Below are positions 38,672 through 56,971 of a stretch of DNA of 64,000 bases, piece after piece. Source of the stretch: Kiloniellaceae bacterium (GTDB lineage Bacteria; Pseudomonadota; Alphaproteobacteria; Kiloniellales; J153). The position numbers and the translations under genes were made by a program. The number at the start of each line of letters is the position of its first letter. Position 1 is the first letter of the stretch. The stretch is from positions 62,001-126,000 of the forward strand of contig JAJFGN010000028.1 in NCBI GenBank assembly GCA_021776115.1, written 5' to 3'. Below the pieces are notes generated by a model. That model was not told the origin of the DNA. It made no database searches and saw only the letters and a list, made by a program, of their open reading frames with translations.

Positions 38672-40675
38672 ATGATGCAGCAAGCGGCGGACGAAGACAT
38701 CCGTGTGCTCGACGACCACTGGATCCCGCTTCGCGATGGCCGGAAGCTGGCGGCGCGGTTGTGGTTTCCCGCCGATGCGGATCGGCGTCCCACGCCCGCT
38801 ATTCTGGAGTACCTGCCCTATCGCCGGCGCGACGGCACGGCGGCCCGCGACGAGACCACCTATCCGATTTTCTGCCGCGCCGGATATGCCGGCGTGCGCG
38901 TGGATATCGCCGGCAGCGGCGATTCGGACGGGCATCTGAGCGATGAGTACAGCGAAGACGAATTGAGCGTCGGCGAAGAAGTAATCGCCTGGATTGCGGA
39001 CCAGCCCTGGTGTTCGGGCGCCGTCGGCATGATCGGCATTTCCTGGGGCGGCTTTAACGGCCTGCAAATTGCCATGCGCCGCCCCAAGGCCTTGAAGGCC
39101 ATCGTGACCGTCTGCTCGACGGTCGACCGCTACGCCGACGATATCCATTACATGGGTGGTTGTCTGTTGCTCGACAACTTCACCTGGGGCGCCCAGATGA
39201 CGGCCTACTCGACCCGGCCGCCCGACCCGGCGGTGCGCGACGACTGGCGCGAGGTTTGGATAACCCGCATGGAGCGTTTGCCCTTCCTGGCCGCCGAGTG
39301 GTTGCGCCACGCACGCCGTGACGCCTTTTGGAAGCACGGCACGGTTTGCGAGGATTGGGCGGCGATAGAATCGCCGGTCCTGGCCATTGGCGGCTGGGCC
39401 GATGCTTACTCGAACGCCCCCGCCGAGTTGGTCGAGCATCTCAAGGCGCCGGCCAAGGCGCTGGTCGGGCCGTGGGAGCACAAATACCCGCATATCGCGC
39501 GCATCGAGCCGGCCGCCGACTTCCACGGCGAGGTGTTGCGCTGGTTCGATCGCTGGCTGAAGGAAGAGCGAAACGGCGCCGACGACTTGCCGGCCTACCG
39601 CGCCTACATTCAGGATCACGGCGCCCCCAAGACAACCTACGGCCCGAGGGGGGGCCGCTGGATCGCGGAGAAGATCTGGCCCTCGCCCAATATTACCAAG
39701 CGCGGTTTCCATTTGACCAATGAGGGCCTTACCCAAGCGCCGGGCGCCGGTGCGGCCGAAGTCGCCTCGCCACAACATATTGGGATGACCGCCGGGTACT
39801 TCTGTCCCGGCATGCGGGTCGAGAACGAACTGCCGGACGATCAGCGCCAGGACGACTCGCTATCCCTATGCTTCGATACGCAGCCGTTGCCGCAGCCGCT
39901 CGAAATACTGGGCGCGGCGGAAGTTGAGTTTGCCTTTTCCGTCGACAAACCATTGGCGCTGCTTGCCCTGAGGCTCAACGATGTCGCACCCGACGGCGCC
40001 TCGGCGCGAGTCACCTACCGGCCCATCAACTTGGCGCACCGGGACGGTCACGAGGCGCCTACAGTGCTCAAACCGGGACAGCGATACCAAGTAAAGGTCC
40101 ACTTGAATCACGCCGGCCATCGCTTTGCGCAAGGCCACAAGGTTCGTCTCGCCCTCTCGACTAGTTATTGGCCGATTGTCTGGCCAAGCCCGGAAACCGC
40201 GCGTGTCACGCTCCATCTCGAGGACTGCCGCTTGCTTCTGCCGTGCCGTGACGCGTCGCGCGACGACGCCGATGTCGCGCCTGCAGCGCCGCGCGACTTC
40301 ACGAAGCTGGCCATCAAGAGCTTGCGCGATAGCGACAGCAAGACCCAGCATGACATACTCGAAGATGGCACGCGTGTCCTGAAGACCTTCGACGATTATG
40401 GGGAGAGCCGGGACCCTTATCACGGGCTGGAAGCAGGTTCGACCGTCGAGCAGGATTTTTCGATTCATCCAGACGACCCCTTGTCCGCCCGCGCCGAGGC
40501 GCGCTGGTGCTTCACCCTTGGCCGGGACGCGTGGCGCACACACATCGAATCCGATAACGAGATGACCGCGACCGCGCAGGACTTCCGCCTCAAACGCCGG
40601 GTCCGGGCTTTTGAAAATGAGACCCTCGTGTTCGAGCGCGAGTGGCGCCAAGAGATTCCGCGCGACTGCATGTGA
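38672..40675 (+). CDS. CocE/NonD family serine hydrolase
   Basis: 667 aa. The alpha/beta hydrolase nucleophile is in GISWGGFNGL (S124), and the preceding oxyanion region is VRVDIAGSGDSDG. The probable acid and His lie in GGWADAYSNAP and VGPWEHKYPH. The C-terminal half is the X-Pro dipeptidyl-peptidase C-domain jelly roll. The family includes cocaine esterase, acyl-peptide hydrolases and acyl-amide hydrolases. There is no signal peptide, so it is cytoplasmic. Next to a family-5 (peptide-type) binding protein, hydrolysis of an imported amide, ester or peptide is plausible. Confidence 0.9.
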   Translation: MMQQAADEDIRVLDDHWIPLRDGRKLAARLWFPADADRRPTPAILEYLPYRRRDGTAARDETTYPIFCRAGYAGVRVDIAGSGDSDGHLSDEYSEDELSVGEEVIAWIADQPWCSGAVGMIGISWGGFNGLQIAMRRPKALKAIVTVCSTVDRYADDIHYMGGCLLLDNFTWGAQMTAYSTRPPDPAVRDDWREVWITRMERLPFLAAEWLRHARRDAFWKHGTVCEDWAAIESPVLAIGGWADAYSNAPAELVEHLKAPAKALVGPWEHKYPHIARIEPAADFHGEVLRWFDRWLKEERNGADDLPAYRAYIQDHGAPKTTYGPRGGRWIAEKIWPSPNITKRGFHLTNEGLTQAPGAGAAEVASPQHIGMTAGYFCPGMRVENELPDDQRQDDSLSLCFDTQPLPQPLEILGAAEVEFAFSVDKPLALLALRLNDVAPDGASARVTYRPINLAHRDGHEAPTVLKPGQRYQVKVHLNHAGHRFAQGHKVRLALSTSYWPIVWPSPETARVTLHLEDCRLLLPCRDASRDDADVAPAAPRDFTKLAIKSLRDSDSKTQHDILEDGTRVLKTFDDYGESRDPYHGLEAGSTVEQDFSIHPDDPLSARAEARWCFTLGRDAWRTHIESDNEMTATAQDFRLKRRVRAFENETLVFEREWRQEIPRDCM

Positions 40676-40703
40676 TGTCGAAGAATTTCTTGACGGTAGA
40701 AAC

Positions 40704-42164
40704 ATGCATGCCCGTCTTCCGGCGGCGATAAACCTCGGCAGGATCGGCGCGGGTGCAATCGCCTTCGCATTCGTGCTTAGCGCCACGACGATGGGCGATG
40801 CCCTGGCTCACACCTCGCAACGTGCGTTGGTGATGCTGCTCCCAACCGAGCACTATCTGATCGGTGGTGCAATCGCCGTTTCCTTCACCTTTGTCATGTT
40901 GGGCGTCATACCGGCGCGCATCCTGGGCAAAGTTTTCGGGCGCTACGTCGACGTGTGCCGCAATGTGCTGCCAAACCCCGAAGATTGGCGCCGCCACGCG
41001 GTCAGCAGCTTCTCGTTTCTGATTTTCTCGTTCTTGATTTATGCCGGCGTTGCCGGAAGCCGCGATCCCCTGGCGAATCCCTTGCCCCTGACTGTCTGGA
41101 CCCTGGGATGGGTCGGATTGACACTGGCGCACGCCTTATTGGGCAATCTTTGGGCCTGGATCAACCCTTGGAGCGGCCCTTATAGACTCCTGTCCGGAGC
41201 TTTGAAGCTTCGCGACAAGCAGGGTCCGCCCTTCACCCTGCCGAAAAGGCTTGGCTATCTACCCGCGATCGTCGGCCTCTCCGCCTTTGGGTGGTTCGAG
41301 CTGGTGGACCTCGCCCCCGACGATCCCAACCGGCTGGCCTGGGCGGCGGGGCTCTATTGGTCGATCAACTTCGCCGCCATGCTGGTTTTCGGCGAGGCGG
41401 ACTGGAGATCGAGGGGAGAGTGCTTTTCGGTCTTCTTTAGGTTCGTTTCGCTTCTGGCGCCGATTGGAAGAAATGGCGCCGGCCGAATCGTTCCGGTTGT
41501 CCCAGGCGCGCGCCTGCTCGCCGAACCGCCGCCCTCTCCCAGCGCGGTTCTCTTTGTCGTGCTTGCCTTGGCAACTGTATCCTTCGACGGGTTGAACAAG
41601 ACATTCTGGTATCTGGACCTGATCGGCATCAACCCACTTGCGTTTCCAGGCCGTTCCGCCGTCATATGGCCGAATACCTTCGGCTTGATGCTCATGTTCG
41701 GCGCGATGGCGAGTTTATATTGTCTTTGTGTCGTTGCCGGCGCGCGGATCGCCGGTGCAAAGGACCCTTGGGCCGGCCTCGGGCGCCTGGTGTTGGCGCT
41801 GTTGCCGATCTCGCTCGCCTACCACTTTTCCCATTACGTGACGGTGCTGTTGATCAATCTGCAATACGCTCTCGCGGCCGCGAGCGACCCGCTCGGCACG
41901 GGCACGGATCTGCTTGGGCTCGGGAACTTTCATGTAACCACGTCGTTCCTCGCCGATCATCGTTCAGTTAAAATCATCTGGAACTTGGTGGCCGGCGCCA
42001 TCGTCATCGGTCATCTCTGGGCCGTCATCCTCTCCCACGCGATTGCGATCCGCTTGCATGACACACCGCGCCGCGCCGCGATATCTCAGGTCCCCCTGGC
42101 GGCTTTGATGGTCGCCTATACGGTCTTTGGTCTCTGGCTAATGTCGACGCCGACGGGCGCGTGA
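40704..42164 (+). CDS. Polytopic membrane protein of unknown function
   Basis: 486 aa with about eleven hydrophobic segments and a probable N-terminal signal (ends GDALA before HTSQRALVMLLPTEHY). Recurrent features are NLWAWINPWSGPY, VSFDGLNKTFWYLDL and LAYHFSHYVTVLLINLQ, the last with histidines inside a membrane segment. Proteins with the AHTS..LLPT start are sometimes labelled fenitrothion hydrolase in databases, but I cannot support an enzymatic role here. The start at 40704 is preferred because the longer frame lies inside the CocE gene. It follows that gene by 28 bp and is likely cotranscribed. Confidence 0.75.
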   Translation: MHARLPAAINLGRIGAGAIAFAFVLSATTMGDALAHTSQRALVMLLPTEHYLIGGAIAVSFTFVMLGVIPARILGKVFGRYVDVCRNVLPNPEDWRRHAVSSFSFLIFSFLIYAGVAGSRDPLANPLPLTVWTLGWVGLTLAHALLGNLWAWINPWSGPYRLLSGALKLRDKQGPPFTLPKRLGYLPAIVGLSAFGWFELVDLAPDDPNRLAWAAGLYWSINFAAMLVFGEADWRSRGECFSVFFRFVSLLAPIGRNGAGRIVPVVPGARLLAEPPPSPSAVLFVVLALATVSFDGLNKTFWYLDLIGINPLAFPGRSAVIWPNTFGLMLMFGAMASLYCLCVVAGARIAGAKDPWAGLGRLVLALLPISLAYHFSHYVTVLLINLQYALAAASDPLGTGTDLLGLGNFHVTTSFLADHRSVKIIWNLVAGAIVIGHLWAVILSHAIAIRLHDTPRRAAISQVPLAALMVAYTVFGLWLMSTPTGA

Positions 42165-42274
42165 TCGGGAGGTCGATTTCGCTGGATTTGAAGTCCCGCT
42201 GGGCACTAACATATTGTGGAAACAGAAAATCTCGCTTCGTTGGAGACGAAAAAAACACCTTGGGAGGTCAGAAC

Positions 42275-43594
42275 ATGGTTGAATCGGTGAAGCCAAACCG
42301 GAAAAAGCAAATAAGCGGCGTTTCGCGGCGCAAGGCATTGGCTGGTTTGGGGGGCGCAGCCGCCGGTGCGACGGTTTCGGGTGTTTTGCCAGGGTTTGTA
42401 CGCTATGCGCAGGCGCAAACGTCGGCCCCGATCAAGATTGGCTTCCAGGTGCACCGCACCGGCATCGGCGCCGCCTATGGCCGCTGGTACGATCGAACCA
42501 CCCGGGCGGCGGCCCAACTCATCAACGAATCGGGCGGCATCAATGGACGCCCGATCGAGATCATTGCCGAAGACGACGGCACGGATCCTAAGCGCGGCGC
42601 CGAAGTGGTCGAGAAATTCGCGACTCAGCACGGCGCCGATGTCGCGTTCGGTACTTTGTTCAGCCATGTGGTCATCGGCTCGGCCCCACGCGCCGGTGAA
42701 TTGAAAATCCCGTACTTCGTTGTCAGCGAGGGGCATCATGTCGCCTCCGGCATACTGAACCGCTACACCCTGCAACCTGGCATCACGGACGTTAAGAGCC
42801 AGGTGCAGTCGATGGCGCCTTGGGTCGCGTCCAACCTGGGGAAGAAGGTCACAATGATCTACCCGGATTTCGCATTCGGTCACGATCATCGGGACTATTT
42901 CTCGGCCGCCATGGCGGCGCAGGGCGGTGAGGTCATCGGCAAGATCGCGATCCCGCCGACCGAGAGTTCGTTCTTCAAATACTTTCCGAAGATCCCACGC
43001 GGCACGGAGGTTCTTTATCATGTGATGGTCGGGCCTGGCGTGCTAACCTTCGTAAAGGAAATGGGTGAGTTTTTCGGTTCCAAGCGGCCGGAGATATTCG
43101 GCTTCATCGATTCCCTAGAGGCAGTGAGCATCAACAGCCCGGGGCTGGAATTCCTGGAGGGCAGCTATTTCTGGGAAGCCAATCCGCGCTACGCCCAAGC
43201 GAAATCGTCCAAATTCGATGCCTTCTATCGCGCCAAAGTGGGCGTGGACGAGACCGGCGCCAGCGTCGACGACCCGAAAGATATCGCGACTTACTCACAT
43301 ATGTTCGGGTGCTGGGAAACGCTCCACACCATTAAACAGGGCATGGAGGCGGCCGGATATCGGGGACCGGGAGACCGGGCCAAGCTGATCGAGGCGGTCG
43401 AAGCCATCGACAACATGGAGGAAAGCCAAGCGCATCCGCAAGGCGCCAAGATCTTCAATGGCAAGACCCATCAGGTCTTTGGGCACCAGTTCATTTCGAA
43501 AGTCGGGGGCGGTAAACTCAACGTCGTGCATAAGACTTCGATCGAGGATGGTTTTTACAAGGACGAAGTCGACTACACCTCCCAGCCGCTTTAA
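42275..43594 (+). CDS. Branched-chain amino-acid-type ABC substrate-binding protein (LivK/UrtA-like)
   Basis: 439 aa. A twin-arginine-like leader (SRRKALAGLGGAAAG) is followed by cleavage near YAQA and the type-1 periplasmic fold: IKIGFQVHRTGIGAAYG, LINESGGINGRPIEIIAEDD and VIGSAPRAGELKIPYF. A GGGAGG ribosome-binding site precedes ATG 42275. Liv/Urt-type receptors bind amino acids, urea, short amides and aromatic acids. The nearby enamidase and ring reductase suggest an N-heterocyclic acid or amide as ligand. It is the first gene of the five-gene importer. Confidence 0.92.
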   Translation: MVESVKPNRKKQISGVSRRKALAGLGGAAAGATVSGVLPGFVRYAQAQTSAPIKIGFQVHRTGIGAAYGRWYDRTTRAAAQLINESGGINGRPIEIIAEDDGTDPKRGAEVVEKFATQHGADVAFGTLFSHVVIGSAPRAGELKIPYFVVSEGHHVASGILNRYTLQPGITDVKSQVQSMAPWVASNLGKKVTMIYPDFAFGHDHRDYFSAAMAAQGGEVIGKIAIPPTESSFFKYFPKIPRGTEVLYHVMVGPGVLTFVKEMGEFFGSKRPEIFGFIDSLEAVSINSPGLEFLEGSYFWEANPRYAQAKSSKFDAFYRAKVGVDETGASVDDPKDIATYSHMFGCWETLHTIKQGMEAAGYRGPGDRAKLIEAVEAIDNMEESQAHPQGAKIFNGKTHQVFGHQFISKVGGGKLNVVHKTSIEDGFYKDEVDYTSQPL

Positions 43595-43610
43595 GAGAGC
43601 GTATCTCCCA

Positions 43611-43636
43611 GGGTGGAGGTCGAAAGCCTCCATCCC
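43611..43636 (+). terminator. Stem-loop between receptor and permease genes
   Basis: GGGTGGAGG at 43611-43619 pairs with CCTCCATCCC at 43627-43636 (nine pairs, T43633 bulged) around a 7-nt loop. It begins 16 nt after the receptor stop codon. GGTTTCCGTTCC follows, so termination would be weak. Confidence 0.55.
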
Positions 43637-43677
43637 GGTTTCCGTTCCTAATATCCGCCCTCCAGGGGACAACCGCG

Positions 43678-44559
43678 TTGGATTTCGGCCCCTATCTCCT
43701 GTTAGCCACGCTTGAAGGCGCTGTCGGCGCGGCCGTACTGGCGTTGACGGCCTTGGGCCTGTCGCTTGTCTTCGGGGTCATGCGAATCGTCAACGTCGCC
43801 CACGGCGCGTTCTTTATGCTGGGCGCCATCGTCGCCTGGTGGGTCGCGGATACGCTCGCCGCCGGTCCCGCGCTCAACTTTCTGGCGGCCTTGGTTATCA
43901 GCCCCCTGGCGGTCGGCGCCGTGGCCGTGTTGGCGGAGCGTTTGGTTCTGCGGCGGCTGAATTACAACCCCGAAAGCACCATCGTCGCCACCATCGGTTT
44001 ACTTTATGTCATCGAGCAGGTTGCGCTGATGACCTATGGGCCCGACGCCAGGCCGGTGGTCGCGCCTTTGGATTTCCGCGTTCAGCTGCCCTGGTTTGGG
44101 TATTCCGGCTACAAGCTCTTGGTGATCGGGGCGTCCATCGTCGTGATGCTGGCCGTTTGGTGGGGACTGACCCGTACCCGGATCGGCCTCATGATGCGCG
44201 CGACGCAGTTCGATTCCGAAACCGCGCGCGCCTTCGCGATTCCCGTCGACCGAGTCTATGGCGGCGTCTTCGCGTTTGGCGCCATGTTGGCGGCCATAGG
44301 GGCGGTGTTGGTGGTGCCGATTCAGCAGGCGCATTACCTAATGGGAAACGACCCGCTGCTTCTGTCCTTCATCGTTGTCATTATCGGCGGACTAGGCAGC
44401 CTTAGGGGAACCGTACTCGCGGCCGTCATTATCGGACTTAGCGACGGTATTATTTCGGTCTTTTTCTCGCCGACGCTCGCCAAGATTATCGCCACCCTCA
44501 TCGTCGCCATGATTCTGGTTATACGGCCGAAGGGGTTGTTCGGCACGCAATCGGCATGA
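43678..44559 (+). CDS. livH: Branched-chain amino-acid-type ABC permease (LivH)
   Basis: 293 aa membrane protein. The LivH hallmark ALGLSLVFGVMRIVNVAHG near the N-terminus and IIGGLGSLRGTVLAAVIIG near the C-terminus are clear. The start is TTG 43678 with AGGGGAC upstream. The stop overlaps the next permease start by the ATGA arrangement. Confidence 0.92.
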   Translation: MDFGPYLLLATLEGAVGAAVLALTALGLSLVFGVMRIVNVAHGAFFMLGAIVAWWVADTLAAGPALNFLAALVISPLAVGAVAVLAERLVLRRLNYNPESTIVATIGLLYVIEQVALMTYGPDARPVVAPLDFRVQLPWFGYSGYKLLVIGASIVVMLAVWWGLTRTRIGLMMRATQFDSETARAFAIPVDRVYGGVFAFGAMLAAIGAVLVVPIQQAHYLMGNDPLLLSFIVVIIGGLGSLRGTVLAAVIIGLSDGIISVFFSPTLAKIIATLIVAMILVIRPKGLFGTQSA

Positions 44560-45506
44560 GATCGCGCTGGGTCAACAAGGCGACCGCACTCCATCTGGGC
44601 GTGATCGCCGTTCTTTTCGCGCTTCAGTTCGTCCTGCCCGATTACCACCACGTGAATCTGGCCAGGGTCATGGTTCTGGCGAGCTTCGCCATGGGCTACA
44701 ATATCGCGTTCGGCTATACGGGCCTTCTGAGCCTGGGTCACGCCATGTTCTTTGCGGCGGGCCTCTACGCCGCCGGGCTCATGGCGCTGTTCGCCGGCGT
44801 CGGTGCGGGCGGCGGACTCCTCTTGGGCGTGATCGCCGGATTGGTGGTAGCGGCGGCCGTCGGCTGCCTGGCGCTGCGGACGACCGGCGTTTCCTTTATG
44901 ATTGTCACGCTCATGTTCGCGCAGGCCGCGTTTCTGGCGACCTTCTATTTTGGCGAATATACGCGCGGGGACGAGGGCTTCGTGATTCCATCCAATCTGC
45001 GCAGCCTGTTTGGACTTTCGCTCGTCGAGCCAACGACACGTTATTTTGTGGCGCTAACCTTGTTTTCCCTTTGCATGGCAGTCAGCTTTGCCATTGCCCG
45101 CTCGTCCATGGGGCGGGTTCTGGCCGCCATTCGCGAAAACGAGGAGCGGACCCGAATGCTGGGCTACAACGTCTTTCTATACAAGCTGGTGGCCTTGGTA
45201 ATTTCGGGCGCGATATCCGGTGCTGTTGGGGCCGCTTACGGCATGCTCTTTGGCTACGTCGGCGCGACTTTCGCGTCGATCCAGTATTCGATTCTTCCGC
45301 TGCTCTGGGTCCTGATGGGCGGCGCCGCGACGGTCTTGGGGCCGTTTGTCGGAACCTTATTGATGTTTTACCTGGTCGACATCAGCAGCGGGTTCACCTC
45401 CGCCAACATGTTGATTGTAGGCTTGGCGCTGATCGGGCTGATCCTGTTCTTTCCCAAGGGGATCCTGGGGACTCTCCGCGAACGGGCCGCACCATGGCTG
45501 CCGTGA
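44556..45506 (+). CDS. livM: Branched-chain amino-acid-type ABC permease (LivM)
   Basis: 316 aa with about nine hydrophobic segments. The LivM signature AFGYTGLLSLGHAMFFAAG is near residue 50, LAAIRENEERTRMLGYNVF marks the cytoplasmic coupling loop, and LMGGAATVLGPFVGTLL lies towards the end. It overlaps livG by 13 bp. Confidence 0.92.
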   Translation: MRSRWVNKATALHLGVIAVLFALQFVLPDYHHVNLARVMVLASFAMGYNIAFGYTGLLSLGHAMFFAAGLYAAGLMALFAGVGAGGGLLLGVIAGLVVAAAVGCLALRTTGVSFMIVTLMFAQAAFLATFYFGEYTRGDEGFVIPSNLRSLFGLSLVEPTTRYFVALTLFSLCMAVSFAIARSSMGRVLAAIRENEERTRMLGYNVFLYKLVALVISGAISGAVGAAYGMLFGYVGATFASIQYSILPLLWVLMGGAATVLGPFVGTLLMFYLVDISSGFTSANMLIVGLALIGLILFFPKGILGTLRERAAPWLP

Positions 45507-46228
45507 CCCTGCTTTCCACCGAGAACCTGTCGAAGCAGTTCGGCGGCTTGACGGCCGTGGATGGGGTAAGTTTCACGTTCCTTGAGGGCGAGATTCGCGC
45601 ATTGATTGGCCCGAACGGCGCTGGGAAGACCACCTTCGTCAACCTTCTTTCGGGGCGAATTCCACCAACGACCGGACGGGTCGTCTTCGCGGGCGAGGAC
45701 GTAACGCGGCTTCCCGCTCATACTCGCGTCAACCGCGGTATCGCTTACACCTTCCAGATCACCAGCACCTTCGCCGGTATGTCCGCCTTGGAAAATGTGA
45801 AGCTGTCCGCCCAACGGCGGCTGTCGACAGGTTTCTTCGGTCCAAATCCGGACCTGCTGGAGCGCGTGGCCTTGAGCGCACTCGATCGGGTCGGGCTCGC
45901 GGACCGGCAGGATGAGATTGCCGGAAATCTGAGCTACGGACATCAGCGGCTTCTCGAAGTCGCGATGGGGCTTGGCCTCGATCCAAAGCTTCTAATTCTC
46001 GACGAACCCACTCAGGGCCTTTCGGATGAAGAGATCGCGGTGTTCGTCAAGTTGGTACGGGAGATCGCGCGGAATGCCTCGGTCCTGCTGATCGAACATA
46101 ATATGGACGTGGTGATGGGCCTCGCCGACACGATTACGGTGCTGGATAGAGGCCGCATTCTGGCGGAAGGGACGCCGGAGGAGATCCGGCGCAACGACGC
46201 GGTGAGACGGGCATACCTGGGCAACTGA
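45494..46228 (+). CDS. livG: Branched-chain amino-acid-type ABC ATPase (LivG)
   Basis: 244 aa. Walker [10 protein letters not shown] at residues 39-47, [15 protein letters not shown] signature and Walker [13 protein letters not shown]. The full Liv-type C-terminus ends [11 protein letters not shown] 45494 lies within the last codons of livM; the longer frame further upstream is embedded in that gene and is not used. Confidence 0.93.
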
Positions 46229-46929
46229 TGCTGAATGTAGAAAACATAAACTGTTTCTATGGCCGCACACAGGTGTTGCGGGACTTTTCGCTCTCGGTCG
46301 AGGCGGGCCGTATCCTCTGTGTCATGGGACGCAACGGGGCCGGCAAGACCACGGCGCTCAAATCCATCATGGGCCTGGTTCGACCGCGCAACGGCCGGGT
46401 GGTGATCAATGGAACCGATATCGCCGCGCTTCAAGCCGAGGAAGCGCCCCGACATGGAATCGGCTATGTCCCACAAGGCAGGCGCCTATTCTCCGAGCTG
46501 ACGGTGGCGGACAATCTCGAAATCGGCCTTATGGCACGAGGATCGGGCGGCGATGTTCGAGAGCGCGCCCTGGATTTCTTCCCGGTGCTGCGGGAGCGGC
46601 TGACTCAACGCGCCGGTACGCTGTCCGGCGGCGAACAACAGATGCTGGCGATCGCACGGGCGCTCTGTCTCGATCCCACGGTCCTGCTTCTGGACGAACC
46701 GACCGAAGGACTGATGCCCGCTATGATCGCACGTATCAGGGAAGTGGTGCTAAACTTGAAAAACCAGGGCGTTGCCGTGGTCCTGGTTGAACTGCGCATC
46801 GATGCGGTTCTGCAAGTCGCCGATCAAGTGTTGTTCGTGGAAAATGGCCGCAGCCGCGATACTGTCAATGCGGCGACGTTACGGGAGTCGCCGGAAATGC
46901 TCGACCGTTATCTCGGTGTGGGTCACTGA
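46228..46929 (+). CDS. livF: Branched-chain amino-acid-type ABC ATPase (LivF)
   Basis: 233 aa. Walker [10 protein letters not shown] at about 34-42, [32 protein letters not shown] signature and Walker [11 protein letters not shown]. Its ATG shares one base with the livG stop. It completes the importer. The next gene (enamidase-like) starts 67 bp downstream on the same strand and could be cotranscribed. Confidence 0.93.
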
Positions 46930-46996
46930 TAGATTTACAAAGCCGCGGCGCATAAGGAAACTTGCGACAACGAGGCGATTTCAAGGAGGAGCAGTC

Positions 46997-48172
46997 ATGG
47001 CCGGTTCGGCACATAAACTCGTCATCAAGAATATCGGGCTGATTCTGTCCGGGGCGCTGGAAAAGCCGATCCTCGACGGTGATACGGTCGTATCGGTCGA
47101 CGGCAAGATCGCCGGGATCGGGTACGAAAAAGACCTCGATACCGGCAATCCCGATACGCTGATCGACGCCCATGGCGTCGCCCTTTCACCGGGCCTGATC
47201 GACAGCCATGTGCACCCCGTCATCGGCGATTACACCCCCCGCCAGCAGCAGGTAAACTGGATCGATTCCTGTTTGCACGGCGGCGTCACCACCATGATCT
47301 CCGCGGGGGAGGTGCACCTTCCGGGCCGGCCGAAAGATATCGTCGGGCTCAAGGCGATGGCGATCGCATCCCAGCGCTGGTACGAGAATTTCCGCCCGTC
47401 CGGGGTCAAAGTCCTGGCCGGGGCGCCGGTCATTGAAGAGGGCATGGAAGAGCACGACTTCAAAGAGTTGGCGGACGCCGGTGTGACACTGCTGGGCGAA
47501 GTCGGTCTCGGTTCGGTCAAGGCCGGGGACAAAGCCAAGCAGATGGTGGCCTGGGCGCGCAAGTATGGGATCCAGTCCACGATTCATACCGGCGGGCCGT
47601 CGATTCCCGGCTCCGGCCTGATCGACAAGGACGTTGTGCTGGAGGCGGACGCCGACATCATCGGCCACATCAACGGCGGTCACACCGCGCTTCCGGATGA
47701 CCAGATCCTGTGCCTTTGCGAAAGCTGCCAGCGCGGGATCGAGCTTGTGCACAACGGGAACGAACGGTCCGCTTTGCTGGCCATGCGGACGGCCTTTGAA
47801 CTGGACCAATCGGAACGGGTGATCCTGGGAACCGATTCGCCGGCCGGTTCGGGCGTGCAACCGCTTGGCATCCTGCGCATGATCGCGATGTTGTCGTCGC
47901 TCGGCGACATTCCGGCGGAAACGGCCTTCTGCTTTGCCACCGGTAACACCGCACGCATGCGCGGACTCGATTGCGGCTTGATTGAGATCGGCAAATCCGC
48001 CGACTTCATCCTGATCGATAGTGCCCAGCATGCACCCGGCAAGGACATGCTGGATTCGATTCGCCAGGGCAACTTGCCCGGTGTCGGCATGACCGTGATC
48101 GACGGCGTCGTGCGCTCCGCGCGGTCGCGAAATACGCCGCCGGCTACGAGACTGCCGGAACAGTTGACGTAG
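46997..48172 (+). CDS. ena: Enamidase-like amidohydrolase (6-oxotetrahydronicotinate type)
   Basis: 391 aa amidohydrolase with the metal motif LIDSHVHP (H71, H73), GGVTTMISAGEVHLPGRPKD, GEVGLGSVK, IHTGGPSIPGS, GHINGGHTAL and GTDSPAGSGVQPLGILR. The HLPGRPKD, GGPSIPGS and SRNTPPA segments closely resemble Eubacterium barkeri enamidase as I recall it. That enzyme hydrolyses 1,4,5,6-tetrahydro-6-oxonicotinate to 2-formylglutarate and ammonia. ATG 46997 follows AAGGAGGAG. A 6-hydroxynicotinate-reductase-like gene lies in the convergent operon, which supports the assignment. Substrate identity remains inference. Confidence 0.85.
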   Translation: MAGSAHKLVIKNIGLILSGALEKPILDGDTVVSVDGKIAGIGYEKDLDTGNPDTLIDAHGVALSPGLIDSHVHPVIGDYTPRQQQVNWIDSCLHGGVTTMISAGEVHLPGRPKDIVGLKAMAIASQRWYENFRPSGVKVLAGAPVIEEGMEEHDFKELADAGVTLLGEVGLGSVKAGDKAKQMVAWARKYGIQSTIHTGGPSIPGSGLIDKDVVLEADADIIGHINGGHTALPDDQILCLCESCQRGIELVHNGNERSALLAMRTAFELDQSERVILGTDSPAGSGVQPLGILRMIAMLSSLGDIPAETAFCFATGNTARMRGLDCGLIEIGKSADFILIDSAQHAPGKDMLDSIRQGNLPGVGMTVIDGVVRSARSRNTPPATRLPEQLT

Positions 48173-48190
48173 TGCGGGACCTCACGGGGG

Positions 48191-48778
48191 TTACCGCAAG
48201 CCGTCTTCGCCCTTGGCCTCTTCGGCTTTGAGGCCGCCGACGCGGGGCAAGGGGCGGCCCGAGTCCGTTACAGAAATCGCGACCATGATCTCGTTGGCGC
48301 GAGGTGCATCGTTGATGCGCACCTCCATACCGTCGAAGTGCGAACGCACGTAGGCCGCGTCCTTGTGACCCAGCGGCACGTCGAGCGGCTGTCCCATGGA
48401 GCCCATTTTTTTTGAGGACGGCACCAGCGCCGCGCCTTTCTCCACCGCCGCGCGCAGCGGCTTGCCCAGACGCGGGTGCAGAATCGCGGCCGCATGTTCC
48501 AGTTCGCCATTCTCGCCAACCATGGCGGCCTTGCCATAGCTTTCAGCCCGCCAAGCTTCAATCCCAAGCGCTTCGACACAGCGCCTACCCAGCAGGCCGC
48601 CTAACTCCTCGCCAATAGCCATCAAGTCTTCGAGATCTTCCTGATACCGGCCCGCGAAAGGATTTTCGATCACCGCGACGGCCGCCGCGCGGCGGGTGGG
48701 GGGCGAGATGTCCTTTCCAATTTCCTTGTGGGTCTCTTCCACGATAGTGACGATCTTGCGGACCTTTGCTTTCGTCAT
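48191..48778 (-). CDS. AA_synth (DUF1185) family protein, copy 1
   Basis: 195 aa, soluble, no signal peptide. Shared landmarks with copy 2 are ENPFAGRY (about 38-45), GELEHAA, SSKK, and the block AAYVRSHFD..EVRINDAPRANEI. The two end in almost the same tail (GGLKAEEAKGEDGLR here, GGLKASEIKGEDGLR in copy 2). The family is called amino acid synthesis in Pfam, but no reaction is established to my knowledge. It is last in the operon, joined to copy 2 by an ATGA overlap. A small enzyme or subunit acting on the ring-opened product is possible. Confidence 0.85.
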   Translation of the reverse strand: MTKAKVRKIVTIVEETHKEIGKDISPPTRRAAAVAVIENPFAGRYQEDLEDLMAIGEELGGLLGRRCVEALGIEAWRAESYGKAAMVGENGELEHAAAILHPRLGKPLRAAVEKGAALVPSSKKMGSMGQPLDVPLGHKDAAYVRSHFDGMEVRINDAPRANEIMVAISVTDSGRPLPRVGGLKAEEAKGEDGLR

Positions 48779-49359
48779 CTCAGCCCATCCTCTCCTTTGA
48801 TCTCGCTAGCCTTCAATCCGCCGGCGCGGTTGTGAATACGCGGCCCGGTTGTCATGACCAGGGCGACCAGCATTTCATTCTTTCGGGGCGCGTCGTTGAT
48901 TCCGACTTCGATCGCATCGAAGTGCGAGCGGACATAAGAAGCGTTAGCATGGGTCACCGGAATGTCGAGCAGGGTTCCAGGTCCACCGACCTTTTTTGAC
49001 GAGGCGACAATGGCTTTAGAATTCGTGATGAGTTCGCGCATCGAGTAACCGCCCGGCGCGTGCCAAAGCGCGGCATGCTCCAGCTCCCCCGCCTCGCCGA
49101 CGATGGCGCCTTTGCCATAGCCTTCCACAACGGAGGGATCGCCCCCCAGCGCATCGATCAAATCCTGAGCCATCTTGAGACCGAGCGGCTTTAGATCGTC
49201 GATGAAACCAACGATTTCCTCGACGTATCGCCCGGCGAAGGGATTTTCTATGACGGTGCAAACGGTCCCCCGCCTCAAGGGAACGGACGCAACGGGCCCA
49301 CCCTCGTGGAAAATCTCGTCCAGGGTAATAACAGACTTTCTGATCGCGACCTCAGGCAT
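48775..49359 (-). CDS. AA_synth (DUF1185) family protein, copy 2
   Basis: 194 aa paralogue of the next gene with the same ENPFAGRY, GELEHAA, SSKKVG and YVRSHFDAIEVGINDAPRK landmarks. The ATG at 49359 was chosen over 49386: it follows GAGGCTGG, gives a length matching copy 1, and overlaps the UPF0280 gene by 8 bp. Tandem non-identical copies with a shared C-terminal tail suggest a heteromer whose tails are functionally constrained. Function unknown. Confidence 0.85.
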   Translation of the reverse strand: MPEVAIRKSVITLDEIFHEGGPVASVPLRRGTVCTVIENPFAGRYVEEIVGFIDDLKPLGLKMAQDLIDALGGDPSVVEGYGKGAIVGEAGELEHAALWHAPGGYSMRELITNSKAIVASSKKVGGPGTLLDIPVTHANASYVRSHFDAIEVGINDAPRKNEMLVALVMTTGPRIHNRAGGLKASEIKGEDGLR

Positions 49360-50260
49360 GAACCAGCCTCTTCGTTTCCGTTCCACCTAGCGATAGCCCC
49401 ACAGGCCCAAGGCAATCGATACTTCGGATTTCGCCCTGAAGACATAGCTTGGCCGCGACAATCAGGCCCCGGCAGCGCATATCTTGCGCCACCTTTACGC
49501 CCCGGTCGAGGGCGGCCGCCTTCTCGTCCGCGCTGAGCACGCCAACCTCGACGGTCACCAGCCGATCGCCCAGATCGCTATCGGGAGAAAGTTCGCGCGC
49601 AGGCATCCTGCGGATCGACGGTGCGCCGGGAATGTCGATCGCATTCGCGATCAAAGTCGCCGCCGCATCCGCAGCCGCCGCACAACCCGCCAGCACGGTC
49701 ACGGCGTCGGCGATACCTAGACTGTGACTACGCCCGCGCCACCCGCTAGTCGCGATTCCGCGCACCAGGTCTTCGCTGCCAACCGCTATCTTCTCTAAGC
49801 CCTCGCCCGTTACCGGATTAGAAGCCACGCCAACGGAAAAGCTCTCGCCATGTGCCAAGTACAGGGCGATGTCGCCGCCGTTGTTAACATAGGCCCGGCG
49901 CAAGCTTCGGCCCCGACAGAGCTCAAAAAGAATATGATCGGCAACAGCGCCCGCGACCGCCGCCATCGGTGTGACGAACACCTTGGTGTGAGGAAAAACC
50001 GCCCGCAGCATTCTGCGGGCGACCGCGCCGGCTGGCGCATGAGGAATCGCGTCCACCGGCGCGCGCAGGATCGAAAGCTCCAAGACCAAGGTGTCCAAGA
50101 CAGATCGGAATGCCCGCCGGGCCTGCCGATAAGCGGCCGCGACTTCATCGACGTTCCCGGACGCTTCGACAATCAAGTCGATGGGCCCGTGTTGCAGATG
50201 CAGCCGCTTGCCATCGGGTAGAAGCGCCGCTTGAGGGCCGCTATCGCGAAAGACGCTCAC
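49352..50260 (-). CDS. UPF0280 family protein (ApbE-like fold)
   Basis: 302 aa. The conserved core is FVTPMAAVAGAVADHIL followed by RRAYVNNGGDIALYL and GIATSGWRGRSHSLGIADAVTVLA, which matches UPF0280. UPF0280 is structurally related to the ApbE flavin transferases, and the NNGGDIAL segment resembles the ApbE active-site loop. It is joined by an ATGA overlap to the ring reductase gene. The reductase from E. barkeri is reported to carry covalently bound flavin, so this protein is a candidate for attaching it. That role is inference. Confidence 0.85.
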   Translation of the reverse strand: MSVFRDSGPQAALLPDGKRLHLQHGPIDLIVEASGNVDEVAAAYRQARRAFRSVLDTLVLELSILRAPVDAIPHAPAGAVARRMLRAVFPHTKVFVTPMAAVAGAVADHILFELCRGRSLRRAYVNNGGDIALYLAHGESFSVGVASNPVTGEGLEKIAVGSEDLVRGIATSGWRGRSHSLGIADAVTVLAGCAAAADAAATLIANAIDIPGAPSIRRMPARELSPDSDLGDRLVTVEVGVLSADEKAAALDRGVKVAQDMRCRGLIVAAKLCLQGEIRSIDCLGPVGLSLGGTETKRLVHA

Positions 50261-51780
50261 TTGTCCGTGTCCCTACCGGTCCAGCCAAAGTTGCCGGCCC
50301 GCGTCGGCCACGGATTGTCGCGCACCTGGTCCAAGTGGCGTTGCCCTTTCAGGACGTGGTCGTTCTGGCGCCCGGTAACGCCTTTGACGGCGTCCTCGAT
50401 CGGCATGACATGATCCATATGGCCGCCCAGAGCCTGATAGTCGTCGCGCCGCATGGTGAATTCTATCGGCGCCACCAGGGCGGGCGTCGGAACATAGCCG
50501 AAGGCCCGCTCCGGCATCCGGGTGACATCGGCCATGATGGTAATGCCACCGCCCGGCCAGACATAGGCGGGTGCGCCGCCACAGGTGATATGAGTGAGCA
50601 TCTGCTTCACCGACCGGGTCAGCTTGACCGGATTCTCGGTCACCCCGGCGCGAAGCGATCCGCCGGCACCGCCCATAAACAGGACTGAGCACAAGGCCGG
50701 CTCGCAATTTTCCTCGATTCGTTGAACCGAGGGTATTAGCCGGTCTGGCATCTCCATTTGCTGGGGAATCAAGTCTTCGTCCAATTCGAAGTAAGCGAAC
50801 TGCTCCCCAGTGGTGGAGACCATGAGAAGGGATTGTCCCGGGCGCGCGATCTTCGGATCGAATTTATCGAGGATCAACAAGGGATCGTCTATATCGGTGC
50901 CGCCCCAACCGGTCCCCGGTTCCGCGACTTGAAAGTAGCGGCCCGGCGTGGAACGGCGCCCCTTGACCTTGATGCCGCTTGCTTGCCAACCAATTACCTT
51001 ACCGGCCTGGTGTTCCGACATGACCCCGGTGATGTGATCGTCGACGACCACAACCTCGTCGACCAACCCCTTCCACTGAGAGGCGAACATACCGACTGTC
51101 GCCGACCCGCAACCGACCCGCATCCGCTGCTCCTCGACACCGTTGATGACCGGCGCTTTCCCGGCCTCGATCACGACCGTCAAACCTTCGTCGATCACCA
51201 TCTCCACCGGTTTTCGATTGCACAGATCCATGAGCGATTGGCAGGTGACGCGGCCTTCCTTCTTGCTACCGCCGGTCAGATGATGCACGCCCCCGATCGA
51301 CAGCATTTGAGAACCGTACTCGCCGGTCGTTACGTGACCGATGGGCTCACCATCGACACGGACCAGGTTTCGCTCGGGACCCAGGTGCCGGTCGGTGTCG
51401 ATCTTCACCTTCGCGCCGCAATAGCTGAAGATGCCCTCCGTCACGACCGTGATCATGTCGATGCCATCCACATCGCGCGAGACGATGAAAGGCGCCGGCT
51501 TGTAGTCCGGATAGGTTGTGCCAGCGCCGATAGCGGTGACAAAGGCCTCGCCGGGTATCACCAGGTCGCCGTCCCATTCCTTGTCCGTGTCCAAAAACGG
51601 CACGAGCTTGGCACCGTCTTCCTGGCGCCTATCGATGAGGATCAACGGGTCGACCCGCACTAACTGTCCGGCTTCGTTCGCATAGCGATCACAGGCGCCC
51701 GCTTTCCCTTCGGCGATGTAGCACATCACCGGGCAGGCGTCGCAGCGGATCTTATCGCGCGTTGGCTTACCCTCGCTCAT
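50257..51780 (-). CDS. hnr: 6-hydroxynicotinate reductase-like iron-sulfur flavoprotein
   Basis: 507 aa. The N-terminal cysteines CDACPVMC...GACDRY (C13, C16, C20, C30) would bind a [4Fe-4S] cluster, and further conserved-looking cysteines occur at C121, C180, C187, C224, C359, C364 and C400. I recognise it as the Hnr family, which reduces 6-hydroxynicotinate to 1,4,5,6-tetrahydro-6-oxonicotinate. That enzyme contains covalent flavin, one [2Fe-2S] and two [4Fe-4S] clusters. ATG 51780 starts MSEGKPTRDKIRCDAC; the longer frame lies in the upstream gene. It lies 13 bp after the molybdenum hydroxylase gene. The precise ring substrate is not proven. Confidence 0.85.
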   Translation of the reverse strand: MSEGKPTRDKIRCDACPVMCYIAEGKAGACDRYANEAGQLVRVDPLILIDRRQEDGAKLVPFLDTDKEWDGDLVIPGEAFVTAIGAGTTYPDYKPAPFIVSRDVDGIDMITVVTEGIFSYCGAKVKIDTDRHLGPERNLVRVDGEPIGHVTTGEYGSQMLSIGGVHHLTGGSKKEGRVTCQSLMDLCNRKPVEMVIDEGLTVVIEAGKAPVINGVEEQRMRVGCGSATVGMFASQWKGLVDEVVVVDDHITGVMSEHQAGKVIGWQASGIKVKGRRSTPGRYFQVAEPGTGWGGTDIDDPLLILDKFDPKIARPGQSLLMVSTTGEQFAYFELDEDLIPQQMEMPDRLIPSVQRIEENCEPALCSVLFMGGAGGSLRAGVTENPVKLTRSVKQMLTHITCGGAPAYVWPGGGITIMADVTRMPERAFGYVPTPALVAPIEFTMRRDDYQALGGHMDHVMPIEDAVKGVTGRQNDHVLKGQRHLDQVRDNPWPTRAGNFGWTGRDTDK

Positions 51781-51793
51781 GCCCCGGCCCCGG

Positions 51794-54538
51794 TCATTCC
51801 CGTATCGCCTTAATAGCGGCGCGAACCTTGTCGGGCGTGGCAGGCAGATCGCGGACGAGCGCGCCGGTGGCATCGCGAATCGCGTTCAGAATCGCCGGCG
51901 CCGTGGGGATCAACACATGCTCGCCCAAACCTTTCGCGCCGTAAGGGCCCTCCGCATCGGTCACTTCGACAATGATGTTCTCCACCACCGGCACGTCGCC
52001 GAAGGTGGGAATCAGATAGTCATGCAGGTTTTCGGTGCGGCCCGGAACGTAGTTTTCCATCAAGGCCATGCCGATCCCCTGCGCCGATCCACCTTCGATC
52101 TGCCCCTCGATCAATACCGGATTTATGGCCCGCCCGACGTCATGCGCGGTGCTCAGCCGGTCGAGCTTGACCGTCCCCAGCACCGTATCCACGGTCAACT
52201 CCATGATTTGGGCACCGTAACCATAGACTGCATAAGGCACGCCTTGGCCCTTTTCATCCAGGGGTTTTGTGGGTGGATCATAGGTTTCTTCACCGCGAAA
52301 CACATAACCGAATTCGTCCGGCGCGAGCCGCGACAAATCTAAGCTGGTGACAACAGCGCCGTCGACCAACTCAAGACAACCGTGCTTCGAAAGGATACGG
52401 GCGTCACTAGATACATTGGCATGACGAAGGATTTTCCGGCGCAGCGATTCTCCGGCAAGTTTGGCCGCCATGCCACTGACATATGTTTGGCGCGACGCCG
52501 ACGTCTTCCCGGCGTCCGGCGTCAGGTCGGTGTCGCCGCCAAGCAGGTCAAGACTGTGAACCGGCACGCCCAGCGCGTCAGCCGCGATCTGGGCAATCAC
52601 CGTCGTTGCTCCCTGACCGATATCCACGGCGCCCTGATGCAGGACGACCCGGCCATCAGGACTCACCCCCATGCGGATCGTCGAGGGGTTTGGCAAGGAC
52701 GTGTTGCCGCAGCCGTACCAGCAGGATGCTATCCCAACGCCGCGCCGCAAGCTTGAGCCATTGGTTTGCCGGTTGAAGCGGCTCGCTTCACTTTTGGCTC
52801 GCTCCCAAGCCGGCTTAAGAGCATCGAGGCAGGCGGTAATACCGACGCCCTTGGCGAGCACTTGCCCGGTAACAGTCGCTTGGCCGTTCGAGAGCGCGTT
52901 CCGCAGGCGAAACTCCAAGTGGTCGATGCCGAGCTTAACAGCCAGTTCGTCATAGAGGCACTCCTGAGCAATCGCCGATTGCGGCACGCCGAATCCCCGG
53001 AACGCACCGGACGGCGGGCCATTGGTATGAACCGCCACACTGCGTGCAACATAATTAGGCGTGAAGTAGGGTCCGGAGGCATGGACCGGCACGCGATTGG
53101 CGACGGTCGGTCCCCAACTGGCGTAAGCACCGGTATTGAAAGTACCTTCGAACTCGAACGCCGTGATTTTCCCGGTCTCGTCGCATCCTATTTTAGCCCT
53201 AGTTTCCGAGGGATGTCGCTTGGTAGTTGATTGCATCGATTCCTGGCGGCTGTATGTCAGGGCCGCTGGACGATTGAGATGCCAGGCAGCGATCGCGATA
53301 TAGGGTTGCAACGAGATATCAATCTTAGAACCAAAGCCACCGCCGCAGGCCGTCGGTACGACGCGAATCTGCGTTGGGTCGAGCGCCAGAATTTCCGCGA
53401 GCGTACCCCTATCCATATGCGGCGCTTGCGTCGATGCGAAGACCTCAATGCGATCCCCGACGCGGCGTGCAAATCCGGCTTCGGGCTCGATATAGGCGTG
53501 CTCGATGAAAGGTGTGGAGAACCGACCTTCGACAACATGAGACGCTTGGGCAAACCCCGCCGCGATATCGCCGCGCTCGACATAACCGCGTACCAACACA
53601 TTCCTATCGCGGCCATCGTGAAGCCGCGGGGCATCCTCGGACTGAGCCTGATCCGGTGTGAGCACGTGAAGCAACGGTTCCCAGGTTATCGGAAATTCAT
53701 CCAAATCCAGCGTCTTCATGGCAGCGCGCTCACCAGCGATCGCGGCGACCGCTTCACCACGATAACGGACAAACTTTTCAGCGAAGACGGGTTGATCGGC
53801 GAAAGGCGGAATGACACCGAAACAGTTTCGTCCGGCAACATCCACCGCAGTAAAAACCGCCAGGACACCAGGATGACAGTCAACATAACCGGCGATATCG
53901 CCGAATGCGAAGGCCGCATGGTGATGCGGGCTTCGCAGGACACGAACGATAACCGCATCGTCCGGCGTCAGATCCGCACCGAAGGCCTCCGTGCCTGCCA
54001 CCTTGGGACCGCCGTCCAAACGGCGGATTCCCGCTCCCACACTCGCGCCAACAGGCGGAGACACATCACCGCTATTGAACCCGGTTGCATGCACGACGGC
54101 GTCGATAATCTTGCTATATCCCGTGCACCGGCATAACACGCCGCCCAGGGCATCGGTTACTTCGCTTCTGGTTGGGTTGGGTGTGCGCTGCAATAGCGCG
54201 GCGGCGGAGACAAGCATGCCTGGCGTACATATGCCGCATTGGGCCGCGCCAAAGTGCAGAAACGATTCTTGTAATCGAGACAATGTGCCGGTCGATTTCA
54301 AACCTTCAACGGTGGTAACCTTCGCGCCTTCCGCTTGACCGACCGGCACAAGGCAGGCGCAGCAAGGCGCACCGTCAATTAACACGGTGCAGGCACCGCA
54401 GTCGCCTGCGTCACACCCAACCTTGGTACCGACCAGCCCCAGATGGTCCCGCAACGTCGTCGACAAACGATCGCTTAGCGCGACGTTAGCCCTAACCGGC
54501 GTGCCATTTAGATCGAAACTTACTTCGAGGCCGCGCAT
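51794..54538 (-). CDS. Xanthine dehydrogenase-type molybdenum hydroxylase, fused FeS and Mo subunit
   Basis: 914 aa. Residues 1-160 are the two [2Fe-2S] domains: GCDAGDCGAC with C42, C47 and C50, then CGICTPG (C101, C104) and LCRCTG (C136, C138). The rest is the molybdopterin domain, with CGGGFGSKIDISLQPY, GAFRGFGVPQSA, GGDTDLTPDAGKTSASRQ and the catalytic Glu873 in KGLGEHVLIPTAPAIL. Such enzymes hydroxylate N-heterocycles such as nicotinate at carbon next to nitrogen, using water. The FAD subunit is encoded 10 bp upstream. In E. barkeri nicotinate dehydrogenase these parts are separate subunits, so the fusion differs. Confidence 0.93.
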   Translation of the reverse strand: MRGLEVSFDLNGTPVRANVALSDRLSTTLRDHLGLVGTKVGCDAGDCGACTVLIDGAPCCACLVPVGQAEGAKVTTVEGLKSTGTLSRLQESFLHFGAAQCGICTPGMLVSAAALLQRTPNPTRSEVTDALGGVLCRCTGYSKIIDAVVHATGFNSGDVSPPVGASVGAGIRRLDGGPKVAGTEAFGADLTPDDAVIVRVLRSPHHHAAFAFGDIAGYVDCHPGVLAVFTAVDVAGRNCFGVIPPFADQPVFAEKFVRYRGEAVAAIAGERAAMKTLDLDEFPITWEPLLHVLTPDQAQSEDAPRLHDGRDRNVLVRGYVERGDIAAGFAQASHVVEGRFSTPFIEHAYIEPEAGFARRVGDRIEVFASTQAPHMDRGTLAEILALDPTQIRVVPTACGGGFGSKIDISLQPYIAIAAWHLNRPAALTYSRQESMQSTTKRHPSETRAKIGCDETGKITAFEFEGTFNTGAYASWGPTVANRVPVHASGPYFTPNYVARSVAVHTNGPPSGAFRGFGVPQSAIAQECLYDELAVKLGIDHLEFRLRNALSNGQATVTGQVLAKGVGITACLDALKPAWERAKSEASRFNRQTNGSSLRRGVGIASCWYGCGNTSLPNPSTIRMGVSPDGRVVLHQGAVDIGQGATTVIAQIAADALGVPVHSLDLLGGDTDLTPDAGKTSASRQTYVSGMAAKLAGESLRRKILRHANVSSDARILSKHGCLELVDGAVVTSLDLSRLAPDEFGYVFRGEETYDPPTKPLDEKGQGVPYAVYGYGAQIMELTVDTVLGTVKLDRLSTAHDVGRAINPVLIEGQIEGGSAQGIGMALMENYVPGRTENLHDYLIPTFGDVPVVENIIVEVTDAEGPYGAKGLGEHVLIPTAPAILNAIRDATGALVRDLPATPDKVRAAIKAIRE

Positions 54539-54548
54539 CGAACCGGCC

Positions 54549-55379
54549 CTAAGTTAGGCAGCCGAGGAGCGCGCGCCGTACGAGCTCGCATGCCGCTTCA
54601 GCACGGTAATCGGCGTTCGCGCGTATATCGTCTATGGGAGACAAATGTGCGAGGTGCGCAGACAAAACGGCCTGGGCCAAAGAGTCGTCGCAAGGCTTTG
54701 CAATGAGCGCCTGTTCCAAGCCCCGCAAGCGTTGAGCGACCACGGAGCACGCGCCGACAGAGACGCTTGCGCCGGTTACTCTATTGTCGACACCTGTTTC
54801 AATGCGGGCGGCCACCATGGCAATGGATATGACCAGGTACTTCCTGGTTCCCAATTTGACAAAATGCGACCGGCCTTGTGCGATCTCGGCAGGGATCAAA
54901 ATCCCAGTCACGATCTCGTCTGGGCGCAGGGCGGTCGCGCGGTTGCCGAGAATGAAATCGGCAAGGGCAAGATGACGCTTGCCCCGAGAGGACACCGTCT
55001 CGACTGCCGCATCCAGGATCAGCAGTGGCGGCACCCCGTCGGCGGCTGGAGAAGCATTGCAGATGTTACCCGCGACCGTGGCTCGGTTTTGGATCTGGAC
55101 CGAGCCGACCTCCCGCGCGGCGAGCTTCAGCGCATCGAATGCAGGCGGCAGGTTGTCGGAAATCACGTCGCTCCATGTCGTCAAGGCCCCAATACGCCAG
55201 CTATTGCCTTCACGCCGAATACCACGGAGCCCCTTAAGGGCCGAAATATCCAGAACCGGTTCCGTGACGGCCTGATCGCGAAGAGCAGGATAGAAATCGG
55301 TGCCACCAGCGAGGACCGTCCATCGGTCCTTCGCCAGGAGCGAAAGCGCCGCATCCACCGTGGTCGGCCTCTCGTACAT
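54549..55379 (-). CDS. Xanthine dehydrogenase-type FAD-binding subunit
   Basis: 276 aa medium subunit of the molybdenum hydroxylase. VLAGGTDFYPALRD (about 22-35) and IQNRATVAGNICNASPAADGVPPLL are the FAD-binding motifs, and the C-terminal CO-dehydrogenase flavoprotein domain follows. It is the first gene of the six-gene minus-strand operon ending at 48191; all internal gaps are 13 bp or less or overlaps. Confidence 0.93.
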   Translation of the reverse strand: MYERPTTVDAALSLLAKDRWTVLAGGTDFYPALRDQAVTEPVLDISALKGLRGIRREGNSWRIGALTTWSDVISDNLPPAFDALKLAAREVGSVQIQNRATVAGNICNASPAADGVPPLLILDAAVETVSSRGKRHLALADFILGNRATALRPDEIVTGILIPAEIAQGRSHFVKLGTRKYLVISIAMVAARIETGVDNRVTGASVSVGACSVVAQRLRGLEQALIAKPCDDSLAQAVLSAHLAHLSPIDDIRANADYRAEAACELVRRALLGCLT

Positions 55380-56950: not shown

Positions 56951-56971
56951 CGTTCGTCCTCCACTCTCACG

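Follow-up and report, generated by a model that had tools for sequence, protein, structure and literature searches.

The stretch analysed here (the window), 64,000 nucleotides of contig JAJFGN010000028.1 from a Kiloniellaceae bacterium (Alphaproteobacteria; assembly GCA_021776115.1), carries a cluster in which a molybdenum (Mo) hydroxylase, a 6-hydroxynicotinate reductase-like protein (Hnr), an enamidase-like amidohydrolase (ena) and a Liv-type importer are encoded together with two AA_synth (DUF1185) proteins and one UPF0280/COG2122 protein. Of the new findings, the one of most use is that UPF0280 and Hnr are strictly paired in the genomes sampled. Judged from its genes, the cluster is very probably a reductive nicotinate (vitamin B3) catabolic cluster of the Azorhizobium/Bradyrhizobium kind, with nicotinate as the best-supported substrate. 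Neither the cluster nor the substrate is new, as this kind has already been published. Gene identity, conserved context and the exclusive swapping of modules among relatives are directly observed.

UPF0280 accompanies hnr in the sampled genomes

The Hnr family is widespread, with at least 593 encoding stretches in genome contigs in one scan. Neighbourhood counts given throughout refer to the best 80 of these, a sample that leans to close relatives (Hnr 64–89% identical) and in which some stretches end at contig edges. UPF0280 was present in the fetched stretch of 76/80 loci and lay within 500 bp of hnr in 75. The genomes of the remaining four were searched whole: three of them (L073, L080 and L098) have UPF0280 elsewhere above cut-off and the fourth (L043) has a fragment at a contig edge that scores 41 bits, under the cut-off. 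In the genome of L080, the UPF0280 match outside the 21-kb stretch around hnr (L122) has one internal TAG.

In a phylum-wide sample of 299 genomes, hnr was found in 21 and the UPF0280 subfamily model NF003322 scored above its cut-off in the identical 21; a 22nd genome (G329) gave a 22-bit match. Among 61 genomes of the order, hnr and NF003322 again marked an identical set, of 29. Presence and absence of the pair occur side by side in the genera g6, g9 and g180, and genomes without it include some that are 81–82% complete as well as G570 and G573, at 99 and 93%. Pooling both samples, which have G000 and G012 in common, gives 48 distinct genomes with both genes and none with just one above cut-off. 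No correction for relatedness was made in these co-occurrence counts, and neighbouring genes are carried along with each other. Replication in the Acidobacteriota was uninformative, as among 199 genomes only the centre genome has a real hnr match (another reached 21 bits).

The AlphaFold2 model of UPF0280 (pLDDT 91.1) matched best to 2O34 (DVU1097, of its own family; Z 19.3), followed by the flavin transferases ApbE, Ftp and FmnB at Z 13.8–15.6 over 203–216 residues, with the next T-folds at 7.6 or below. As modelled, UPF0280 has the ApbE flavin-transferase fold. At the sequence level, Pfam ApbE matches weakly (21/40 members; 14.3 bits for the window protein vs. a cut-off of 25.6), and the alignment retains Asp198 (40/40) and Thr202 (38/40) of the ADxxxT motif as well as NGGD (40/40). 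Unlike in ApbE, FmnB and Ftp, however, the general-base His is not conserved (15/40, the column having been equated with His257 by sequence pattern and not by superposition), and the ApbE target motif D-x-x-[ST]-G-A-[ST] is found in 0/81 Hnr sequences. Our inference is that Hnr most likely needs UPF0280 for its maturation, perhaps for attachment of a cofactor. More tentatively, and short of what we would call probable, UPF0280/COG2122 may form a new class of enzymes that attach cofactors by means of an ApbE fold. In this subfamily the enzyme would be dedicated to Hnr and would install its covalent flavin away from the canonical motif, for example at DDHITG or GCGSAT, two strongly conserved stretches. 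A covalently bound flavin is reportedly a property of the Eubacterium barkeri enzyme; the abstract of Alhapel 2006 is said to mention it, together with the occurrence of the first three genes in nine Proteobacteria.

A rather doubtful alternative is that UPF0280 handles sulfur or persulfide and attaches no cofactor, in which case its link with hnr would reflect sulfur or Fe-S supply. Homocysteine synthesis in Desulfovibrio vulgaris depends on COG2122, for which a persulfide role has been proposed, and the similarity of COG2122 to ApbE seems to stop short of the flavin-binding region (PMC5764234). The patchy catalytic His and the missing target motif speak for the same alternative. However, apart from 2O34 the fold matches ApbE flavin transferases well above any other T-fold, NGGD is retained together with two residues of ADxxxT, its Asp and Thr, and a general sulfur role leaves unexplained why NF003322 scores above cut-off in none of the sampled genomes that lack hnr. 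The COG2122/UPF0280 proteins of homocysteine synthesis in Desulfovibrio and methanogens (PMC5764234) belong to the same wider family, which includes the nearest structure, 2O34, whereas the subfamily in the window goes with hnr in the sampled genomes. No literature link between UPF0280/COG2122 and 6-hydroxynicotinate was found among the papers listed in searches whose coverage mostly excluded subscription papers, and PMC5764234 does not contain 'nicotin'.

The Hnr protein

At the thresholds applied, neither Pfam nor NCBIfam gave a match to Hnr. The family keeps an N-terminal CxxCxxxCx9C motif and the invariant Cys224 and Cys359. The window protein is 74% identical to the homologue of Afipia birgiae, presumably a relative of strain SG-6C, and in five Afipia and Bradyrhizobium loci from strains other than the published ones (L071, L078, L087, L094 and L100; Hnr 70–74% identical) the order hnr-UPF0280-DUF1185 is shared. 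The Hnr model (pLDDT 82.9, with poor stretches) found no solved fold by Foldseek at E ≤ 0.001 (best 0.038), and its best Z score among the folds listed was 4.7 over 64 residues, to a glycine-cleavage T-protein. With E allowed up to 10, Pfam GCV_T_C appears in 52/57 members (best E 0.00019; window Hnr 16.7 bits vs. a cut-off of 25.9), and this weak likeness to T-protein recurs in sequence and structure comparisons alike. Homology of Hnr with DUF39 was tried because DUF39-dependent homocysteine synthesis likewise requires UPF0280/COG2122 and the eye picks out short similar stretches. It was not supported at the level of sequence, the only level compared: profile comparison gave a probability below 1%, and profile Smith-Waterman scores against 200 column shuffles had z of 1.0 and 1.5, with shallow profiles (7 DUF39 rows). 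In one genome assembled as a single contig, hnr is split over two frames (L030 and L031; G012:C1:2969811-2971264) by a frameshift or sequencing error, and its UPF0280 gene lacks a stop.

Module swapping and the substrate

Two types of hydroxylase accompany hnr. The xanthine dehydrogenase (XDH) type of the window (>50% identity) occurs in 60 of the 80 loci and a cytochrome-linked NicB-like type (>400 bits) in 17 (L087:5653-9270 and 16 more); three show neither in view and none shows both. In the NicB-like type, the representative annotated combines molybdopterin with cytochrome c domains. Across a tree of Hnr (81 rows, quick maximum likelihood), hydroxylase type switches four times, with two of the switches forced by strongly supported branches; since the two types are swapped over the tree, both should feed the same reductase. 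In the 17 NicB-like loci, Hnr stays 69–74% identical to that of the window, and the enamidase 72–74% in the eight that show one.

The ring opener is swapped as well. HyuA/HyuB genes (hydantoinase/oxoprolinase type) are found in 14/80 loci (L046, L051, L052, L054, L057, L062, L068, L081, L088, L089, L091, L096, L097 and L107), never together with ena, which is present in 33 of the 66 others (Fisher p 0.0002, relatedness uncorrected). Whole-genome searches of 12 of these 14 genomes gave no ena match above 23 bits in 11 and a 55%-identical copy in one. The top NCBIfam model for HyuA is caprolactamase alpha (492 bits vs. a cut-off of 1000), and HyuA/HyuB is probably an alternative lactam-opening enzyme. 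Both swaps fit a single substrate, nicotinate, and a single lactam intermediate. In addition, a nicotinamidase homologue occurs in 13/80 loci (L081:5333-6046 and 12 more, mostly Mesorhizobium relatives), all of which carry the XDH-type hydroxylase; one representative was checked and scored above its NCBIfam cut-off, with 274 bits to 2WT9. The exclusive swapping of hydroxylase and ring opener, together with a nicotinamidase homologue in 13 loci, therefore points to nicotinate.

The window's own enzymes are consistent with this substrate. At E ≤ 1e-50 the amidohydrolase has a single PDB match, enamidase 2VUN of E. barkeri, with an alignment that covers almost the full length, and the HxH, GEVGLG, HTGG, HINGG and D motifs align, their HxH, E, H, H and D presumably forming the metal site. 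The top PDB match of the FAD subunit is 3HRD chain C, the FAD subunit of nicotinate dehydrogenase (100.4 bits, with CO dehydrogenase next at 96.4), and the large subunit matches chains A, B and D of the same E. barkeri enzyme with 270, 203 and 131 bits over successive parts. Nicotinate taken up by the Liv-type importer would be hydroxylated to 6-hydroxynicotinate by the XDH-type enzyme and reduced by Hnr, in a four-electron step, to 1,4,5,6-tetrahydro-6-oxonicotinate, the lactam of which the enamidase would open with release of ammonia to give 2-formylglutarate. Decarboxylation and oxidation would probably take this product on to glutarate, through which the A. caulinodans route is reported to run. 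UPF0280 would mature Hnr, and the two DUF1185 proteins may be accessory at or after ring opening. We infer every one of these reactions in this organism.

Several observations weigh against the reading. The top single PDB chain for the large subunit is aldehyde oxidoreductase (1DGJ, 398 bits), and with each NCBIfam model that it matched, the subunit scores under the cut-off. The enamidase gene is inside the fetched stretch in just 33/80 loci, two different Liv systems are found beside hnr, and the specificity of the importer is a prediction. The nicotinamidase and NicB-like genes sit in relatives, with none in the window, and lower-pathway genes of this genome were looked for in the cluster annotation only. 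For homology to the proven E. barkeri Hnr, the basis is the SG-6C protein, to which PMC3511419 assigns 42% identity.

That the cluster degrades some other, related N-heterocycle converging on 6-hydroxynicotinate or a 6-oxo analogue (a nicotinate with substituents, say, or a different pyridine carboxylate) seems improbable. The window hydroxylase does differ from that of Bradyrhizobium-type loci, the top single chain for its large subunit is an aldehyde oxidoreductase, and 6-chloronicotinate can enter at 6-hydroxynicotinate (PMC3511419). However, the FAD subunit is nearest to nicotinate dehydrogenase, whose three further chains match the large subunit, the XDH-type hydroxylase is the one accompanied by a nicotinamidase homologue in 13 relatives, and Hnr and enamidase keep their identity to the window proteins where the hydroxylase is exchanged. 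Another question is whether DUF1185 and UPF0280 catalyse lower-pathway steps, such as a deamination or decarboxylation that would follow ring opening. They share the minus-strand unit, and DUF1185 is found in 74/80 hnr loci. We nevertheless consider such catalysis unlikely: DUF1185 occurs in 41 of the 299 sampled genomes, comprising 20 of the 21 with hnr and 21 without it, and UPF0280, with its modelled ApbE fold, tracks hnr and not the swapped ring opener. On the same distribution, the idea that DUF1185 is nicotinate-specific was rejected. A third AA_synth gene lies apart from the cluster in the window's own genome (G000:C85:49630-50148). The structure to which the first DUF1185 protein is closely related, 2QTP, we take to be the entry of SPO0826. 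That protein has been solved, has a chorismate mutase-like fold and adjoins Liv genes (PMC2954203).

Organization of the cluster

Annotation with Pfam and NCBIfam reproduced the genes, order, strands and coordinates given in the initial annotation of the window, including two convergent units separated by 18 bp (48173-48190). The plus-strand unit runs from the substrate-binding protein (SBP) through two permeases and two ATPases to the amidohydrolase, and the minus-strand unit, read down from 55379, consists of the FAD subunit, the fused Fe-S/Mo subunit, Hnr, UPF0280 and the two DUF1185 proteins (Table 1). What had been described as three proteins of unknown function are two DUF1185 paralogues and UPF0280; solved structures exist for both families. 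The minus-strand grouping is more than chance, because at least one further gene of this unit stands beside hnr in each of the 80 loci.

Table 1 Features of the cluster, with positions counted from the first letter of the window
Feature	Position	Strand	Matches and remarks
Multi-pass membrane protein	40611..42164	+	start codon uncertain; outside the range of the initial annotation
Liv-type periplasmic substrate-binding protein (SBP)	42275..43594	+	PF13458, 168 bits
Liv-type permease 1 (BPD_transp_2)	43678..44559	+	PF02653
Liv-type permease 2 (BPD_transp_2)	44556..45506	+	PF02653
ABC ATPase 1 (LivG-like, ABC_tran)	45503..46228	+	PF00005, PF12399
ABC ATPase 2 (LivF-like, ABC_tran)	46228..46929	+	PF00005
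Enamidase-like amidohydrolase (ena)	46997..48172	+	2VUN, 359.7 bits over 380 residues
AA_synth/DUF1185 protein 1	48191..48778	-	PF06684, 247 bits (cut-off 27); 2QTP, 321 bits
AA_synth/DUF1185 protein 2	48775..49386	-	PF06684, 226 bits (cut-off 27)
UPF0280/COG2122 protein	49352..50260	-	NF003322, 371.6 bits (cut-off 290)
6-hydroxynicotinate reductase-like protein (hnr)	50257..51780	-	70–74% identical to Afipia and Bradyrhizobium loci
Mo hydroxylase, [2Fe-2S] and molybdopterin subunits fused	51794..54538	-	PF01799, PF02738, PF20256
Mo hydroxylase FAD subunit	54549..55379	-	PF00941, PF03450

An SBP more than 55% identical to that of the window, the ORF of which can extend upstream to a GTG at 42161, is found in 21/80 loci. 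The membrane protein encoded upstream of it has seven hydrophobic segments in a simple hydropathy scan and no Pfam or NCBIfam match, and is 42% identical over 468 aa to its homologue in the loci of relatives. It belongs with the importer, because its homologues occur in 13/80 loci, all 13 with the window-type SBP. They adjoin the SBP in 12 of these and in L047 sit at the opposite end of the Liv genes; among the other eight loci with this SBP, six are cut off at the SBP and two (L033 and L088) show no homologue. Beside the cluster, at 56058-58866, lie genes for CrcB (56058-56639), a zinc-ribbon protein (56621-56950) and formamidase FmdA (57628-58866). Of the three, fmdA was looked for in the hnr loci and found in 0/80. 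A ferredoxin--NADP reductase-like gene, scoring below its NCBIfam cut-off, lies near hnr in 26 loci (L055:5155-5994 and 25 more) and is possibly an electron donor system; it has no homologue within the window.

Relation to known systems

The initial annotation had recognized E. barkeri-type logic, with Mo hydroxylase, Hnr and enamidase, next to an importer, and this part is supported, here in an alphaproteobacterium. Its view that the route after ring opening, and possibly the ring substrate, are new is not supported, and the cluster is not new either, as PMC3511419 (2012) describes such a cluster. According to that paper, an Hnr homologue 42% identical to that of E. barkeri is present in Bradyrhizobiaceae strain SG-6C, and the cluster is common to Azorhizobium caulinodans ORS571, B. 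japonicum and R. palustris (HaA2). Both nicotinate and 6-hydroxynicotinate supported growth of SG-6C, the cluster genes were assigned by BLAST, and the later steps of A. caulinodans are reported to proceed via glutarate. As annotated, the cluster in the window shares with the published one the first three enzymes, an ABC transporter and two conserved unknown proteins, and its predicted route likewise runs via tetrahydro-6-oxonicotinate. The same reductive route is described for E. barkeri and A. caulinodans in PMC9304392. To judge from the Afipia and Bradyrhizobium loci, the two unknown proteins of the published cluster would be UPF0280 and DUF1185. Among the papers listed in a literature search on homarine or operons with 6-hydroxynicotinate, none dealt with the present cluster. 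Bradyrhizobium, Afipia and Xanthobacter loci, which are not those of the published strains, have the NicB-like cytochrome-linked hydroxylase and the other Liv system, whereas in the window the hydroxylase is of the XDH type, with an FAD subunit, and DUF1185 is present twice.

The nicotinate fermentation of E. barkeri, on which Alhapel 2006 is said to report, uses an XDH-type nicotinate dehydrogenase, Hnr and enamidase, and the window encodes an XDH-type hydroxylase with Hnr-like and enamidase-like proteins. In contrast to E. barkeri, the window has fused Fe-S/Mo subunits, an unsplit Mo protein and an importer, and no fermentation genes were seen in the cluster. The later E. barkeri genes, which we take to be those for hydroxymethylglutarate dehydrogenase, dehydratase and mutase, are absent from the cluster, as had been noted initially: none is among the annotated genes of 40611-55379 or the recurrent neighbours in the 80 loci, the rest of the genome not having been searched. 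The accompanying suggestion that AA_synth and UPF0280 replace these enzymes looks unlikely, since UPF0280 tracks hnr and AA_synth occurs in 21 sampled genomes without it.

Among clusters of its kind, this one is unremarkable. A structure of Hnr would be informative, as its model matched no solved fold in the searches made. The co-occurrence of UPF0280 with Hnr gives the uncharacterised COG2122 family a second, easily assayed context. Whether an ApbE fold attaches flavin in COG2122 is a question left over from the homocysteine role, and it can be approached through Hnr; if UPF0280 does install the Hnr flavin, the same attachment chemistry might explain why COG2122 is needed in homocysteine synthesis.

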